Part shown: piece after piece, positions 3,475-15,365 of the stretch | Layout: the number at the start of each line of letters is the position of its first letter | How positions within the stretch are numbered: position 1 is the first letter of the stretch | From: Jatrophihabitans cynanchi | GTDB taxonomy: Bacteria; Actinomycetota; Actinomycetes; Mycobacteriales; Jatrophihabitantaceae | DNA length: 64,000 nt | Direction of reading: 5' to 3' | Assembly: GCF_027247405.1 (NCBI RefSeq) | Contig: NZ_CP097463.1 | Coordinates: forward strand, 3,100,001-3,164,000 | Position numbers and translations under genes: made by a program | Notes under the pieces: model-generated | Databases searched by the model: none | What the model saw: the letters and a program-made list of their open reading frames with translations, nothing else | What the model was told of the DNA's origin: nothing

Positions 3475-3484
3475 ATACCTGTAT
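3475..3484. promoter_or_regulatory. Candidate LysR operator
   Basis: Interrupted palindrome ATAC-CT-GTAT in the 84-bp divergent region between the LysR gene and the catabolic operon. It is A/T-rich against a G/C-rich background and partly overlaps a GGTATACC palindrome at 3472-3479. Position fits a LysR site; no experimental or family-specific consensus supports it. Confidence 0.3.
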
Positions 3485-3547
3485 GGGCATGGCGATGGGC
3501 ACTATCGGTATTTGTTCGGCATGGCCTGATGCGTCAGGCTGGTCGGC

Positions 3548-5008
3548 ATGACGCCGCGCATCCTTCGCAACTTCGTGGCCGGTGAGTTCGTCGAGTCCGG
3601 CCGTACCTGGGACAAGATCGGGCCGGTCGACGGCACCGTCATCGCCCGGGTGCACGAGGCGGACGCCGCGCTCGTCGACCGCGCCGTGTCCGCGGCCCGC
3701 GCCGCCCTCGACGGCGCGTGGGGCGCCACTACCGTCGCGCAGCGAACCGCCCTGCTGCGCCGGGTCGCCGACCGGATCGAGGAGCGGTTCGAGGAGTTCG
3801 TCCTCGCCGAGTCGGCCGACACCGGCAAGCCGCTGGCGCAGGCCCGCGCGCTGGACGTGGCCCGGGCGGTGGCGAACTTCCGCTCCTTCGCCGACACGGT
3901 GGCCGCGGCCGGGCAGCCCTCGTTCATGACCGACCTGGCGGGCGGCCGGCAGGCGCTGAACTACGCGGTGCGCAAGCCGCTCGGCGTGGTCGCGGTGATC
4001 GTGCCGTGGAACCTGCCGCTGTTGCTGCTCACCTGGAAGGTCGCGCCGGCGCTGGCCTGTGGCAATGCGGTGGTGGTCAAGCCGAGCGAGGAGACGCCGT
4101 CGACCGCCACGCTGCTGGCCGAGGTACTGGACGAGGCAGGTGTGCCCGCCGGGGTCTACAACGTGGTGCACGGCTTCGGGCCCGATTCGGCCGGCCAGTT
4201 CCTCACCGAGCACCCCGGCATCGACGGCGTGACGTTCACCGGTTCGTCGGCCACGGGTGCGGGCATCATGCGCGCGGTGGCGCCGCGGGTGCGTCCGGTG
4301 TCCTTCGAGTTGGGCGGCAAGAACGCCGCGCTGGTGTTCGCCGACGCCGACCTGGACGCGACGCTGGACGGCCTGACCCGGTCGGTGTTCGCGAACACCG
4401 GGCAGGTGTGCCTGTGCACCGAGCGGGTGTACGTGCAGCGGCCGGTGTTCGACGAGGTGGCGGCCGGGCTGGTCGAGCGGGCTCGGGGGCTGCGGCTCGG
4501 CCGTCCGGACGACGCGGCGACCACGACCGGCCCACTGATCTCGGCCGAGCACCGCGAGAAGGTGCTGTCGTACTACCGGCTCGCCGAGGAGGTGGGCGCG
4601 AAGACGCTGGTCGGCGGCGCGGTTCCGTCGCTCGGTGACGGCCTCGACGGCGGCTGGTGGATCGAGCCGACGTTGTGGACCGGGCTGGGCAACGCCGACC
4701 GCCCGATGCGCGAGGAGATCTTCGGCCCGTGCGCCGCGCTCGTCCCGTTCGACACCGAGGACGAGGCGATCGCGCTGGCCAACGACACCGACTACGGGCT
4801 GGCGTCCTCGGTCTGGACGAGCAACCTATCCCGCGGGCACCGCGTCGCGCAGGCGATGAACGTCGGCATGTCGTGGGTGAACACGTGGTTCCTGCGCGAC
4901 CTGCGTTCGCCGTTCGGCGGCGTCGGGTTGTCCGGCATCGGCCGCGAGGGCGGCGTGCACTCGCTGGACTTCTACACCGAACCCACCAACGTCTGCGTCC
5001 AACTGTGA
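3548..5008 (+). CDS. 2-aminomuconate-6-semialdehyde dehydrogenase (aldehyde dehydrogenase family)
   Basis: 486 residues, full-length ALDH. Visible landmarks are the cofactor-binding [13 protein letters not shown] and [13 protein letters not shown] segments, FTGSSATG near residue 235, the general-base FELGGKNA, and the catalytic cysteine in [14 protein letters not shown] near residue 288. The closest named relatives by pattern are 2-hydroxymuconic / 2-aminomuconic semialdehyde dehydrogenases. The gene sits beside a RidA-type deaminase, HAO and ACMSD, which makes aminomuconate semialdehyde the likely substrate, giving 2-aminomuconate with NAD+. It is first in the operon and its stop overlaps the next GTG start. 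Confidence 0.87.
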
Positions 5009-11865: not shown

Positions 11866-12507
11866 ATGACCGAGTCAGATGGCAGGCCCCGAGTCCGGAT
11901 GACCGGCCGCGAACGGCGCGAGCAGTTGCTCGACGTCGGGCGCACGCTGTTCGCGCAGAAGGGTTTCGAGGCGACCTCCATCGAGGAGATCGCTGCGCGG
12001 GCCGGGGTGAGCAAGCCCGTCGTGTACGAGCACTTCGGCGGTAAGGAGGGGCTCTACGCCGTCGTCGTCGACCGCGAGATGAGCGACCTGCTCGAGCGGC
12101 TGACGTCCGCGCTGCGGGTCGGCCACCCCCGCAAGCTCGTCGAGCAGGCCGCGCTCGCGCTGCTCACCTACATCGAGGAGCAGACGGACGGGTTCCGCAT
12201 CCTGTCCCGCGACTCGCCCGTCGCGAGTTCGACCGGGGGCACGTTCTCCTCGCTGCTGAACGACATCGCCAGCCAGGTGGAGCACATCTTGTCGCGCGAG
12301 TTCGAGCAGCGGAAGATCTCGACCAAGCTCGCGCCGATGTACGCGCAGATGCTGGTGGGGATGGTCGCGCTGACCGGGCAGTGGTGGCTGGAGGAGCGCA
12401 AGCCCAAGCGCGAGGTGGTGGCCGCGCACCTGGTGAACCTGGGCTGGAACGGCCTGGCGCACCTGGAGCCGGACCCCAAGCTGGTGACCCGCCCGCGCAA
12501 GGACTGA
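11866..12507 (+). CDS. TetR/AcrR family transcriptional regulator
   Basis: 213 residues. The DNA-binding helix-turn-helix occupies residues 12-58 (REQLLDVGRTLFAQKGFEATSIEEIAARAGVSKPVVYEHFGGKEGLY), a textbook TetR head, followed by an all-helical ligand-binding domain. The start at 11866 lies five bases after the PAP2 stop, so the two are probably co-transcribed. Ligand and targets are unknown; the adjacent phosphatase is the simplest candidate target. Confidence 0.88.
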   Translation: MTESDGRPRVRMTGRERREQLLDVGRTLFAQKGFEATSIEEIAARAGVSKPVVYEHFGGKEGLYAVVVDREMSDLLERLTSALRVGHPRKLVEQAALALLTYIEEQTDGFRILSRDSPVASSTGGTFSSLLNDIASQVEHILSREFEQRKISTKLAPMYAQMLVGMVALTGQWWLEERKPKREVVAAHLVNLGWNGLAHLEPDPKLVTRPRKD

Positions 12508-12535: not shown

Positions 12536-12604
12536 CCGAGTGGCGACCGCGCTCCCCGAGTGGCGAGCTGATCGGCGCCACTCGACGGGTTCAGTCGCCA
12601 CTCG
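12536..12604. repeat. 69-bp symmetric repeat, copy 1
   Basis: The element has two direct CGAGTGGCGA units (12537-12546, 12557-12566) followed by two inverted units (12575-12584, with one mismatch, and 12595-12604). The spacing is mirror-symmetric (10, 8, 10 bases), so the outer pair and inner pair can fold as a nested hairpin. It differs from copy 2 at only three of 69 positions and has the same orientation. It lies 28 bases after the TetR stop. Confidence 0.9.
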
Positions 12605-12636
12605 CCGACGCAGTGCAGGACTTGTGGCCGATCGCC

Positions 12637-12645
12637 TGTGGATAA
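12637..12645 (-). promoter_or_regulatory. Perfect DnaA-box sequence upstream of the VSR-like gene
   Basis: TTATCCACA on the minus strand is identical to the consensus high-affinity DnaA box. It is a single copy 20-30 bases before the start of the VSR/DUF559-like gene and just inside the left repeat. Its A/T-rich character stands out from the surroundings. Whether DnaA binds here is not known. Confidence 0.45.
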
Positions 12646-12665
12646 CGTCGCCGCGCCACCGCGGA

Positions 12666-13502
12666 ATGCCGCACACTGCCGTCATGATCGGGGTGGCACC
12701 GGACGCGGTGGACGAGCTGGCGCACCGTTGTCGGGCGGCGCTCGCCCGCCTGCCGGACGGCACCGTGCTCGCCGGCCTGACCGCGGCGCGGTTGCACGGG
12801 GTGTGGTTGCCGTCGGCGCGCGCCGAGGAACCGATCGAGGTGATCCTGCGTGGAGTCGGCATCGTCCCGCGGGCCGTGTCCGGTTCGATGCGCCCGGACG
12901 TACGGGGCCGGCGGCGGCAGTTGCGGCGCGCTGAGGTGGTGGTGCAGGACGGCCTGCCGCTCACCTGCGCGCCCCGCACCTGGGTCGACCTCGCGGAGCG
13001 GTTGCCGATGCCGGACCTGGTCGCGGCCGGTGACAGCCTGTTGCGGCGGCATGCCAATGCGCGCGAAGTGGAGCTTCTCATCGCCGATGCGCGCGGCCGG
13101 CGGGGGATCGTGCGCGCCCGCAGCGCTGTGACCCTGCTGGATCCTCGTTCCGGGTCGCGTCCGGAGAGCCATCTGCGCCTCGGGCTCCTGGCGGCGGGGC
13201 TCCCCGCGCCGGCCGTGAACACCGCCATCTACGACGAGCACGGGCAATGGCTGGCCGAACCCGATCTGCACTACAAGCAGGCGCGGCTGTGCCTGGAGTA
13301 CAACGGCGCCATGCACGCGGACGTCGGCCGAATGCGCAGGGACATCACCCGCGCGCTCGATGTGGCCCGCGCGGAGTGGCTGACGCTGACGTTCGGCCCC
13401 GTCCAGGTCTTCCAGCGGATGTCCGAGTCGGTACAGATCGTCCGTACCTACTTGGACATTCGCGATGCTGGCTGGCGCCGGCGCCTACGCAGCTCGGCCT
13501 GA
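12666..13502 (+). CDS. DUF559/VSR-like endonuclease-fold protein in a repeat-flanked module
   Basis: 278 residues from the ATG at 12666; an in-frame ATG at 12684 is equally possible and neither has a ribosome site. The N-terminal 130 residues resemble the AbiEi-like/type IV antitoxin-like region found in many actinobacterial proteins (AGLTAARLHGVWLP, LTCAPRTWVDLAERL). The C-terminal half has a PD-(D/E)XK-like pattern: SRPESHLRLGLLAAGLP, then AEPDLHYKQARLCLEYNGAMH. The predicted metal-binding acids are the E, the D of EPDL and the E of LEYNG. Nuclease activity is inferred only. The gene lies between two 69-bp repeats. Confidence 0.6.
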   Translation: MPHTAVMIGVAPDAVDELAHRCRAALARLPDGTVLAGLTAARLHGVWLPSARAEEPIEVILRGVGIVPRAVSGSMRPDVRGRRRQLRRAEVVVQDGLPLTCAPRTWVDLAERLPMPDLVAAGDSLLRRHANAREVELLIADARGRRGIVRARSAVTLLDPRSGSRPESHLRLGLLAAGLPAPAVNTAIYDEHGQWLAEPDLHYKQARLCLEYNGAMHADVGRMRRDITRALDVARAEWLTLTFGPVQVFQRMSESVQIVRTYLDIRDAGWRRRLRSSA

Positions 13503-13519
13503 CCAGCCGTCCAGCACCG

Positions 13520-13588
13520 CCGAGTGGCGACCGCGCCCCCCGAGTGGCGAGCTGATCGTCGCCACTCGAAGGGTTCAGTCGCCACTCG
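13520..13588. repeat. 69-bp symmetric repeat, copy 2
   Basis: Direct repeat of copy 1 (66 of 69 bases identical). Here all four CGAGTGGCGA units are perfect (13521-13530, 13541-13550, inverted 13559-13568, inverted 13579-13588). It begins 17 bases after the VSR-like gene and overlaps the 3' end of the ABC-F gene: the element supplies the last codons (Ser-Gly-Asp) and the stop of that gene. Confidence 0.9.
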
Positions 13589-15365
13589 GCTCGGCAGCGA
13601 GCAGTAGCCACGACTCCTCGGCCGCCTCGCGGTCGGCGATCACGGTCCGCAGGTCGGCGTCGAGCTCGGCCACCCGGGCGAAGTCGGTCGCGTGCTCGGC
13701 CAGCGCCGCGTGCAGGGCGCGTTCACGCCTTTCCAGCGTGGCGATCTGCCGCTCCAGCCGGGTCAGCTCCTTGCGGGCGGCGCGGGTGTCACCGCGCTTC
13801 TCCCGCCGCTCGCCCGTACCGAGCAGAGCAGCTTTGCTCGGTACGGGCGAGCCGGCGGCGGACGCGGCGCGCCGGCGGTCCAGGTAGTCCTCCACCCCGC
13901 CAGGGAGTGCCGCGATCGTGACACCGCCACCTGCGCTGTCGAGCAGCGCGACCGTCGAGTCGCAGACCCGTTCCAGCAGGTAGCGGTCGTGGCTGACGAC
14001 CACCAGCGTGCCGGCCCACGAGTCGAGCAGATCCTCCAGCGCGGCGAGCGTGTCGGTGTCCAGATCGTTCGTCGGCTCGTCCAGCAGCAGGACGTTCGGC
14101 TGCGCCAGCAGCAACCGCAGCAGCTGCAGCCGGCGCCGCTCGCCGCCGGAGAGCTCGCCGACCCGGGTCCACTGCTTGTCGTTGGCGAAGCCGAAGCGTT
14201 CGGCCAGTTGGGTCGCGGAGAGCTCGACGCCGGCCAGCTCGGCGGTGGTGCGCACCTCGCGCACGGCCTCGATCACCCGCAGCTCGGCCGGCAGCTCGGC
14301 GACCTCCTGGGACAGGTAGGCCGCGTGCACGGTCTGCCCGATCCGCACCGTGCCCGACGCCGGTTGCAGCGTCCCGGCCAGCAGCCGCAGCAGGTGCGTC
14401 TTGCCCGACCCGTTGACACCGATGATCCCGATCCGGTCGCCGGGCCCCACGTGCCAGCTCACCCGGTCCAGCAGCACGCGATCGCCGACCCGCACCGTCA
14501 CGTCCTTCAGCTCGAACACGCTGCGCCCGAGCCGCCGTTGCGCCAGCGCCCGCAGCTCCACCGCTGACCGTGGCGCCGGGACGTCGGCGATCAGCGCCTC
14601 CGCCGCCTCGATGCGGAACTTCGGCTTGGACGTGCGGGCCGGGGCGCCGCGCCGCAACCAGGCCAGCTCCTTGCGCAGCAGGTTCTGCCGACGCGCCTCG
14701 GACGCCTCGGCCTGCCGGGCCCGCTCCGCCCTGGCCAGGACGTACGCCGCGTACCCCCCGTCGAACTGGCGGACGGTGCCGTCGGCGACCTCCCAGGTAC
14801 GCGAGCACACCGCGTCCAGGAACCACCGGTCGTGGGTGACCGTGATCAGGGCGCCGCGCCGCGCAGAGAGATAGGACGCCAGCCAGGCGATGCCCTCGAC
14901 GTCCAGGTGGTTCGTCGGCTCGTCCAGCACCAGCAGGTCGGCCTGCTGCACCAGCGCGGCCGCCAGCGCCACCCGCCGCCGTTCCCCGCCGGACAGCCGA
15001 GCGACGTCCGCATCGAGCCCGACCGAGGCCAGACCGAGCCCGGTCAGCACCTCGCGCACCGCCGCGTCACCGGCCCACTCATGGACGGCCGCCGCGCCGA
15101 CCACCAGCGAGCGCACGTCCGCGCCTGCGGGGAACTCGCCACGCTGTGACACCGACGCGACCGTCACACCCCCGGTGCGGGTCACCCGGCCGCTGTCGGG
15201 CGCCTCGTCGGCCAGGATCAGGCGCAGCAGGGTGGTCTTGCCGCCACCGTTGCGCCCGACGACGCCGATCCGCTCGCCGGCCGCGATCCCGAGCGACACC
15301 GACTCGAACACGCGCGTCGTGCCGTAAGCCTTGTCGACGGCTTCCAGGTTGATCAGGTTCGCCAT
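13575..15365 (-). CDS. ABC-F family ATP-binding protein
   Basis: 596 residues with two nucleotide-binding domains and no membrane segment. Domain 1 has Walker A GRNGGGKTT (near 37) and signature LSGGERRRVALA; domain 2 has Walker A GVNGSGKTH (near 317) and LSGGERRRLQLL. The interdomain linker is charged and helical (about 235-265). A C-terminal coiled-coil extension (RKELTRLERQIATLERRERAL) ends the protein. ABC-F proteins act on the ribosome in translation or antibiotic resistance. The join between domain 2 and the coiled coil contains a palindrome-encoded segment, and the last three residues come from the 69-bp repeat. Confidence 0.9.
   Translation of the reverse strand: MANLINLEAVDKAYGTTRVFESVSLGIAAGERIGVVGRNGGGKTTLLRLILADEAPDSGRVTRTGGVTVASVSQRGEFPAGADVRSLVVGAAAVHEWAGDAAVREVLTGLGLASVGLDADVARLSGGERRRVALAAALVQQADLLVLDEPTNHLDVEGIAWLASYLSARRGALITVTHDRWFLDAVCSRTWEVADGTVRQFDGGYAAYVLARAERARQAEASEARRQNLLRKELAWLRRGAPARTSKPKFRIEAAEALIADVPAPRSAVELRALAQRRLGRSVFELKDVTVRVGDRVLLDRVSWHVGPGDRIGIIGVNGSGKTHLLRLLAGTLQPASGTVRIGQTVHAAYLSQEVAELPAELRVIEAVREVRTTAELAGVELSATQLAERFGFANDKQWTRVGELSGGERRRLQLLRLLLAQPNVLLLDEPTNDLDTDTLAALEDLLDSWAGTLVVVSHDRYLLERVCDSTVALLDSAGGGVTIAALPGGVEDYLDRRRAASAAGSPVPSKAALLGTGERREKRGDTRAARKELTRLERQIATLERRERALHAALAEHATDFARVAELDADLRTVIADREAAEESWLLLAAEPSGD
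13811..13849. repeat. Perfect 15-nt palindrome inserted in frame in the ABC-F gene
   Basis: CGCCCGTACCGAGCA (13811-13825) and its exact complement (13835-13849) flank a 9-nt loop. It encodes SPVPSKAALLGTGE in the linker between the second ATPase domain and the C-terminal coiled coil. A perfect 15-bp stem inside a gene, in a disordered linker, suggests a palindromic insertion element rather than ordinary coding sequence. Confidence 0.65.

Follow-up and report, generated by a model that had tools for sequence, protein, structure and literature searches.

We analysed a 64,000-nucleotide stretch of the Jatrophihabitans cynanchi genome (contig NZ_CP097463.1, positions 3,100,001 to 3,164,000; hereafter the window) and focused on a gene for a predicted AbiEi-like and Vsr-like nuclease that lies between two near-identical palindromes and is preceded by a DnaA-box-like sequence (Table 1). 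The flanking repeats, at 12536-12604 and 13520-13588, lie in the same orientation and are identical at 66 of 69 bases, as the initial annotation of this DNA had reported; the palindrome itself spans 68 bp. Between them we found, again in agreement with that annotation, one gene and the window's only exact copy of TTATCCACA, a 9-mer that occurs 10 times in the 4.5-Mb genome and stands here 38 bp ahead of the ATG that we used for the nuclease gene (our home-made gene caller prefers the ATG at 12666, giving 278 aa). Each palindrome has the form CGAGTGGCGA-N10-CGAGTGGCGA-N8-TCGCCACTCG-N10-TCGCCACTCG, with four 10-mers, two direct and then two inverted, held apart by fixed spacers of 10, 8 and 10 bp, and with one base changed in the left copy. 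The spacers are 93% identical between the two window copies, compared to a mean of 43% for other copies of this repeat family (family A), and the pair is therefore probably a recent duplicate rather than a product of chance.

Table 1. Features of the nuclease locus and its neighbours, in window coordinates.
Feature	Position	Strand	Remarks
Left palindromic element, family A	12537..12604	.	four CGAGTGGCGA copies
Direct 10-mers of left element	12537-12546, 12557-12566		CGAGTGGCGA
Inverted 10-mers of left element	12575-12584 (one mismatch), 12595-12604		
Exact DnaA-box-like 9-mer TTATCCACA	12637..12645	-	between left element and gene
Predicted AbiEi-like / Vsr-like (DUF559-type) nuclease gene, 272 aa	12684..13502	+	
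Conserved PD-(D/E)XK core codons	13164..13298	+	E161 13164-13166, D194 13263-13265, E205 13296-13298
Right palindromic element, family A	13521..13588	.	four exact 10-mers
TetR-family regulator gene, left neighbour	11899..12507	+	Pfam TetR_N 2.5e-18, synteny
ABC-F type ATPase gene (probable), right neighbour	13575..15365	-	Pfam ABC_tran, ABC_tran_CTD

Sequence comparison and structure prediction support a reading of the encoded protein as an AbiEi-like N-terminal part joined to a Vsr/DUF559-type PD-(D/E)XK C-terminal part. In an alignment of 21 homologues, residues E161, D194, E205 and G208 are invariant, and we take the first three to be catalytic on the basis of what is known of the family. 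The C-terminal domain matches the solved chains 3hrl (E 3.2e-8) and 3r3p (E 0.015) by profile. The structure of the window protein was predicted with a mean predicted local distance difference test score (pLDDT) of 90.7, and a second-look structure aligner matched it to 3hrl (Z 9.5, root-mean-square deviation (r.m.s.d.) 2.1, 92 aligned), to 3r3p, which is I-Bth0305I (Z 9.1, r.m.s.d. 2.3, 95 aligned), and to Vsr (1vsr; Z 7.4); a Foldseek search of the predicted structure against the PDB returned nothing at E <= 0.001. Alignment, profiles and predicted structure thus support the PD-(D/E)XK-like C-terminus proposed in the initial annotation. Residues 7-153 align with nucleotidyltransferase-like chains and Rv2827c at Z about 6-8.5, which may reflect a common arrangement only, and of the 21 aligned members, 20 are hit by one and the same PADLOC AbiEi model. 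The window protein has no Pfam match above cut-off, none to a transposase, and no NCBIfam match. Nine proteins scanned against NCBIfam likewise gave no match above cut-off, and a Pfam scan of ten relatives gave three matches above cut-off (AbiEi_4; DUF559; DUF559 with MTES_1575), three weaker matches and four blanks. No gene for an AbiEii toxin partner lies beside the window gene, whose neighbours are of TetR and ABC-transporter type.

Bracketing by repeats is general among homologues of this gene. Our homologue set comprises 112 loci: 32 of family f1 minus L059, which is without a start; 30 from an order-wide set minus nine already in f1; and 60 places hand-picked for spread among the matches listed, their flanks unseen, which bring the order set to 81 (for the order set, "start" means where the profile match begins and not the start codon). 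The bracket test compares 500 bp upstream with 530 bp downstream and scores ungapped repeats at +1 per match and -2 per mismatch. It was applied to 104 genes, eight of the 112 having less than 300 bp of either flank; one of these eight, L053, is bracketed when tested with 290 bp. At a score of at least 20, 64 of the 104 genes are bracketed (48 by direct and 49 by inverted repeats, since palindromes can give both), with 54 at a threshold of at least 25 and 41 at 30 or above. Dereplicated representatives give 56/93 at 70% protein identity and 30/53 at 50%. Bracketed genes occur in most families (f1 19/26, f16 23/34, f3 10/18, f15 4/13, f7 4/6, and in the small sets f9 2/3, f4 0/2, f12 1/1 and f10 1/1) and make up nine of 11 genes in named records (Tsukamurella tyrosinosolvens 6/7, Arthrobacter 3/3, Nonomuraea 0/1).

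The background of this test is about 0-3%. Comparing the upstream flank of one locus with the downstream flank of another gave 0 of 300 at the same score, and flanks moved 500 bp outward gave 3/103. Genes of the DUF222-HNH family were bracketed in two of 63 cases (0/27 and 2/36); that set holds 29 of 30 loci (L265 is unused) plus 40 picked ones, with the test run on 27/29 and 36/40 respectively, and includes close copies such as L323 and L324. Among ordinary genes of the J. cynanchi genome, 5/262 scored as bracketed, namely the window gene and four genes of one tandem cluster (4/261 without the window gene); among those of a second genome, G117, the figure was 3/233, with its DUF559-type gene scoring highest (2/232 without it) and a second DUF559-type gene of that stretch not among the three. 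The tandem cluster (L350:11995-16235), the main own-genome background of the test, consists of four genes that we read as flagellin-like from their sequence, with near-identical, partly palindromic spacers.

The bracket has a regular anatomy. The right repeat starts at a median of 9.5 bp after the stop codon (55/64 within -30 to +60), the left repeat ends at a median of 26 bp before the first DnaA box (49 genes), and the median repeat length is 63 bp. In all 49 genes that combine a bracket with a box, the box closest to the gene is located after the left repeat and ahead of the gene. Of the 64 repeats, 34 are clearly palindromic, compared to 16 of 320 random segments. Moreover, repeat sequences are mostly private to close relatives: bracketed homologues of different genomes have a repeat sequence in common in six of six pairs at 70% protein identity or more, in 3/34 pairs at 55-70%, and in about 1% or less below that. 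Within the window's clade, as judged by eye, the repeats follow a similar plan of short motifs spaced about 19-20 bp apart, with the motif itself drifting (CGAGTGGCGA, TTGAGTGGCG, CGAGTGGCTA, GTCGACTGGCG, GCCACCGACG, GCGAATGGGCAG, CGACCACTCGG); L051 carries GTTGAGTGACG at the repeat ends around a different inner sequence. The initial annotation had tied the nuclease to its own flanking repeats by a logic like that of repetitive extragenic palindromic (REP) sequences and REP-associated tyrosine transposases (RAYTs), and the frequency of bracketing, its low background and the largely private repeats argue for such a tie at the level of sequence. As side observations, Agrococcus loci L112, L114 and L116 have tandem direct repeats of GAGTGGCGCCCGCGGTGGGT-type units of about 20 bp each, with inverted copies at the end, resembling GAGTGGCG elements but arrayed, and in genome G016 the repeat found next to nuclease gene L067 also has copies beside a DUF222 gene (L336:2057-2174).

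The J. cynanchi genome holds further copies of these repeats. Beyond the window pair, 11 loci carry family A elements, whose spacers diverge while the 10-mers stay nearly invariant at base-exact spacing. A sister family B, with motif TTGAGTGGCG and spacing 19/18/19, was fetched at 17 loci with one exact pattern, which biases the motif variants that appear; this count is a lower bound, because B copies with variant motifs exist. These loci lead us to reject the idea that the repeats are unique to the window gene. None of the 28 solo loci has a nuclease-profile or DUF222 match in its 6-kb stretch. The initial annotation had held that a repeat found at many places unrelated to such genes would count against its proposal; taken literally, this is what we observe, yet solo copies are also what a REP-like model predicts. 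Only 1 of the 28 loci lies between divergent genes, compared to 59 of 401 sampled gene pairs that are divergent, placing the elements near gene ends, for the most part 3' ends. By scripted gene calls, for which we trained a home-made codon model on the same genome, three of the 28 elements (L041, L122, L126) overlap a predicted gene by >80 bp, and a predicted stop codon falls inside the element in five B cases and at the ABC-F gene.

The closest paralogue of the window protein (L046/L032; G000:C1:1828708-1829526; 53% identical) is bracketed by two near-identical family-B palindromes (97% over 87 bp) with inner motif CAGTGGCG, and carries the box TGTGGACAA between the left B copy and the gene. 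Family A therefore brackets one nuclease and family B the other, and this pairing, together with solo copies in this genome and in Tsukamurella, strengthens the proposed link between nuclease and repeat. In the quadruple, a G-to-C change is tolerated at the inner motif (CAGTGGCG) and, in nine of the 11 elements that have it, affects one side only, so that pairing is lost; we noted no such change in the outer motifs of A/B elements L035-L045 and L119-L135, a view biased by the search pattern. Spacer complementarity is 0.40 within elements and 0.48 between elements for family A, and 0.50 and 0.60 for family B. With spacers not more complementary within an element and pairs broken in 9/11, we disfavour the idea that conserved RNA or DNA hairpins constrain families A and B. 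An exact-pattern scan of 249 sampled genomes of the order gave 47 matches in this genome (G000) and 0-4 in each of the other 248, and a scan of wider genome contigs gave eight stretches from four actinobacterial genera and two metagenome-assembled genomes; neither scan is informative beyond this genome, because the repeat sequence differs from lineage to lineage. At L048:1706-1829 and 3477-3734, in the surroundings of another DUF559-type paralogue, we noted other GC-rich tandem and dispersed repeats, unlike the usual palindromic brackets.

Solo copies also occur outside this genome. In Tsukamurella, the palindrome of L298 is found at 11 places in nine records; five inspected solo copies all abut the 3' end of a gene, three of them between convergent genes, and none has a nuclease-profile match within 2 kb. 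The site occupied in the window is empty in many relatives, where the TetR gene is the convergent partner of the ABC-F gene: in nine of 19 loci the two genes face each other directly, with no nuclease gene and no GAGTGGC motif between them, two loci have another open reading frame in between, and the others differ or are cut. These empty sites count in favour of the unit proposed in the initial annotation. One of the nine (L269, genome G020) contains a solo palindrome exactly between TetR and ABC-F. This palindrome is 80% identical over 70 bp to that bracketing the nuclease gene of G007, a genome of another genus, and the predicted TetR stop codon of L269 lies inside it; more than one member of the repeat family has thus made use of this site. 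In the window, the right element starts 18 bp past the nuclease stop codon, overlaps the ABC-F stop codon and supplies the last ABC-F codons (PSGD and stop), without which ABC-F ends in relatives. The label "ABC-F" is our reading of a two-domain layout, and we read an additional AAA_21 match of this neighbour as probably one to the ATPase superfamily.

No known RNA family matches within the window at Rfam gathering score. The left element found no DNA match in phages and plasmids, and we accordingly set aside a phage or plasmid origin for it; the relative L054 gave no match in phages and viral contigs, and the window protein, searched in plasmids only, matched four records.

A DnaA-box motif precedes many of the nuclease genes across the order and lies in the promoter region. 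We counted the motif TTRTCCACA upstream of 108 genes, leaving out four of the 112 loci with <350 bp upstream. An exact copy precedes 35 genes and a copy with one mismatch 39 more, 74/108 together, compared to 1/107 coding controls and 11/540 shuffles at up to one mismatch. In f1, an exact box lies no more than 400 bp upstream of 13 of 31 genes, while there was none in 92,498 other bases of those loci, none for the reversed motif, and a mean of 0.04 in shuffles. In the other families, 25/81 genes have an exact box (only 2/36 in f16), and their 28 sites all fall 124-472 bp upstream of the profile start, with none elsewhere there. An exact box within 250 bp upstream was found for 9/166 neighbouring genes, all among the 36 that share the upstream region of the nuclease, against 0/130 of those that do not. 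The coding, shuffle and within-locus controls lead us to reject chance as the origin of the box. Exact boxes occur in 38 genes; for 34 of these we picked the start codon by eye from in-frame candidates, and the box lies 34-71 bp before it (median 50). A second, more loosely defined box stands at a distance of 18-19 bp in the same orientation in 27/108 genes, while every other spacing from 10 to 59 bp is found in at most two. In named records, 6/12 genes have a box close to the start, exact or with one mismatch (Arthrobacter 3/3, Nonomuraea 1/1, Collinsella 0/1). The association fits, on sequence grounds, the possible DnaA link raised by the initial annotation and extends it to the order; that annotation had also named sister genes devoid of repeats and box as evidence against itself, and the sister genes we examined are not of that kind.

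The motif resembles authentic DnaA boxes in what it conserves and in what it allows to vary. Among 94 sites with up to one mismatch, 41 of 57 departures fall at positions 1-2. The dnaA-dnaN intergenic region of the same genome (L340:1266-1583, G000:C1:2441266-2441583), which is likely to be oriC, has the boxes TTGTCCACA, CTGTCCACA and TCGTCCACA, which vary at the same two positions (TTG, CTG and TCG before TCCACA). TTGTCCACA is also the high-affinity DnaA box of M. tuberculosis and S. coelicolor in Table 1 of PMC4285127. We found other exact boxes within gyrB, next to a gene that we read as dnaB, and some 200 bp ahead of dnaK. DUF222-HNH genes carry the box as well, 15/69 exactly and 24/69 at up to one mismatch, some as tandem pairs at 18-20 bp; their exact boxes lie 129-299 bp before the profile start (L237, L238, L254, L256, L306, L310, L316, L318, L319, L321, L323, L324, L325, L333 and L336). 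That these genes have the box and rarely a bracket points to a host factor and away from an operator belonging to the nuclease.

We think it probable, with real room for doubt, that the window locus represents a selfish unit of wide distribution, with the order palindrome, DnaA box or boxes, nuclease gene, palindrome. In the mechanism that we propose, the AbiEi-like part would recognise the unit's private palindrome and the Vsr-like domain would cut there, after which repair or recombination would copy the palindrome, or the whole unit, into sites at gene ends. DnaA bound at the promoter would couple expression of the nuclease to replication, a time at which the cell contains a sister or homologous template. 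The proposed unit would be analogous to RAYTs, the presumed agents of REP spread, but with an unrelated enzyme. We put forward more tentatively, as a joint claim to which we give slightly less than an even chance, that these units form a new class of selfish element common across Actinomycetes, in which an AbiEi-Vsr nuclease cuts its private palindrome, the bracketed unit is copied to gene ends and expression is timed by DnaA, independently of HUH, DDE and recombinase enzymes, and most copies are hidden under the names "DUF559/AbiEi domain-containing protein" or "hypothetical protein".

Several observations weigh against a selfish unit of this kind. By our measure 40 of the 104 genes are unbracketed, including the own-genome paralogue L033/L047, and another own-genome gene, L034/L048, counts among the 64 with a borderline score of 20 and a 29-bp repeat; these genes come from the 4/7 own-genome profile matches covered, among the matches listed. 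At the threshold used, 30 of the 64 repeats are not clearly palindromic, and the Mantel correlation between protein and repeat is weak (rho 0.16, reached by 2/500 permutations). Dispersal is also uneven: three of the nine best Tsukamurella places of the L298 palindrome overlap annotated genes, 400 kb of the genome that carries the L195 repeat contain no solo copy of it, and the L289 repeat occurs at three places only, all in one record. As to the box, only 2/7 Tsukamurella genes have one near the start, and the gap within box pairs is 9-10 bp, compared to the 2-3 bp preferred by E. coli DnaA (PMC11317965). The presence of a box shows no significant association with that of a bracket (Fisher p 0.26), and DUF222-HNH genes with boxes are for the most part unbracketed; the box may thus have to be considered apart from the unit.

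Brackets could also arise passively, if an enzyme other than the nuclease, such as an unlinked RAYT, moved terminator-like palindromes of gene 3' ends, and a horizontally mobile nuclease gene was captured between two copies by homologous recombination. The position of the solo copies, at gene 3' ends and often between convergent genes, is indeed that described for REPs (PMC3733652). Against this reading, other genes are bracketed at about 1%, with DUF222, another multi-copy nuclease family, at 2/63; the repeats also differ by nuclease, being common only to closely related ones, and the bracket sits tight on the gene. We consider this origin unlikely. It is more improbable still that the palindromes are simply binding sites of the AbiEi-like part, either as an operator or as marks for self-protection, within a defence or toxin-like module that does not move. 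Such a role would suit the match of one PADLOC AbiEi model to 20/21 aligned members, the left copy just upstream of the promoter region, and the conserved A/B 10-mer cores, in which the one-sided G-to-C change breaks pairing in 9/11 as expected of a protein-bound site, but it leaves unexplained the near-identical second copy past the stop codon, the dispersed solo copies at gene ends and the lineage-specific insertion.

The TTRTCCACA sites may, finally, be real promoter elements bound by a factor other than DnaA, a possibility that we judge rather doubtful. Their tandem spacing of 18-19 bp is unlike the 2-3 bp gap preferred by E. coli DnaA (PMC11317965), and the listed boxes of the own dnaA-dnaN region are without such spacing. 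However, both the sequence and its tolerated changes fit the actinobacterial DnaA boxes tabulated in PMC4285127 and those of the own dnaA-dnaN region, and a private operator is at odds with the same motif, partly in 18-20 bp pairs, preceding DUF222 genes of another family.

The selfish unit proposed here bears on a common group of genes, since DUF559/AbiEi-type genes, with a profile match in at least 128 of 140 genomes of the order, are annotated as unknown or antitoxin-like. If our reading is correct, REP-like repeats would have a second, unrelated enzyme class; the origin of intergenic palindromes in GC-rich genomes would be explained in part by such units; candidate nucleases would become available whose target sites can be read off their own flanks; and there would be a class of promoters through which expression of the nuclease may be linked to the initiator of replication. 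In the open-access literature, judged mostly by title, we found no description of palindrome-bracketed DUF559-type nuclease units, and this kind of selfish gene unit, if our reading holds, seems not to have been described before.

Each part of the unit has counterparts among known systems. The I-Bth0305I homing endonuclease (3r3p) has a related C-terminal domain, by profile and second-look fold, and a similar selfish-gene logic; our gene, in contrast, lies neither in an intron nor inside a conserved gene, has an additional AbiEi-like N-terminal part, and is flanked by a duplicated palindrome rather than by the halves of a split target site. With the AbiEi antitoxins of type IV toxin-antitoxin systems it has in common an N-terminal part matching AbiEi models (AbiEi_4 in some relatives), and with DUF559/MTES_1575 proteins a DUF559-type C-terminal part, but the unit is a single gene with a fused nuclease domain and a palindrome bracket. 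Like DnaA-regulated promoters, it has exact boxes 34-71 bp before the chosen start codon; it differs from them in pairing boxes at 18-19 bp, and its boxes are recognised here by their sequence. The closest parallel is with REP/RAYT systems, which likewise have a DNA-processing gene flanked by two cognate palindromes, dispersed solo palindromes mostly downstream of genes, and lineage-specific palindromes (PMC2817692, PMC3733652). At the ends of the A/B elements we noticed no GTAG or CGTC tag by eye, and no systematic search for one was made. The unit repeats are longer than REPs (median 63 bp) and low in copy number where counted, and the unit, unlike RAYT loci, has a DnaA-box promoter. Although the unit appears to work like a REP/RAYT system, we do not file it there because its enzyme fails the defining RAYT test: a RAYT is a Y1 (HUH) tyrosine transposase, whereas the protein here is of the AbiEi-Vsr/PD-(D/E)XK kind.

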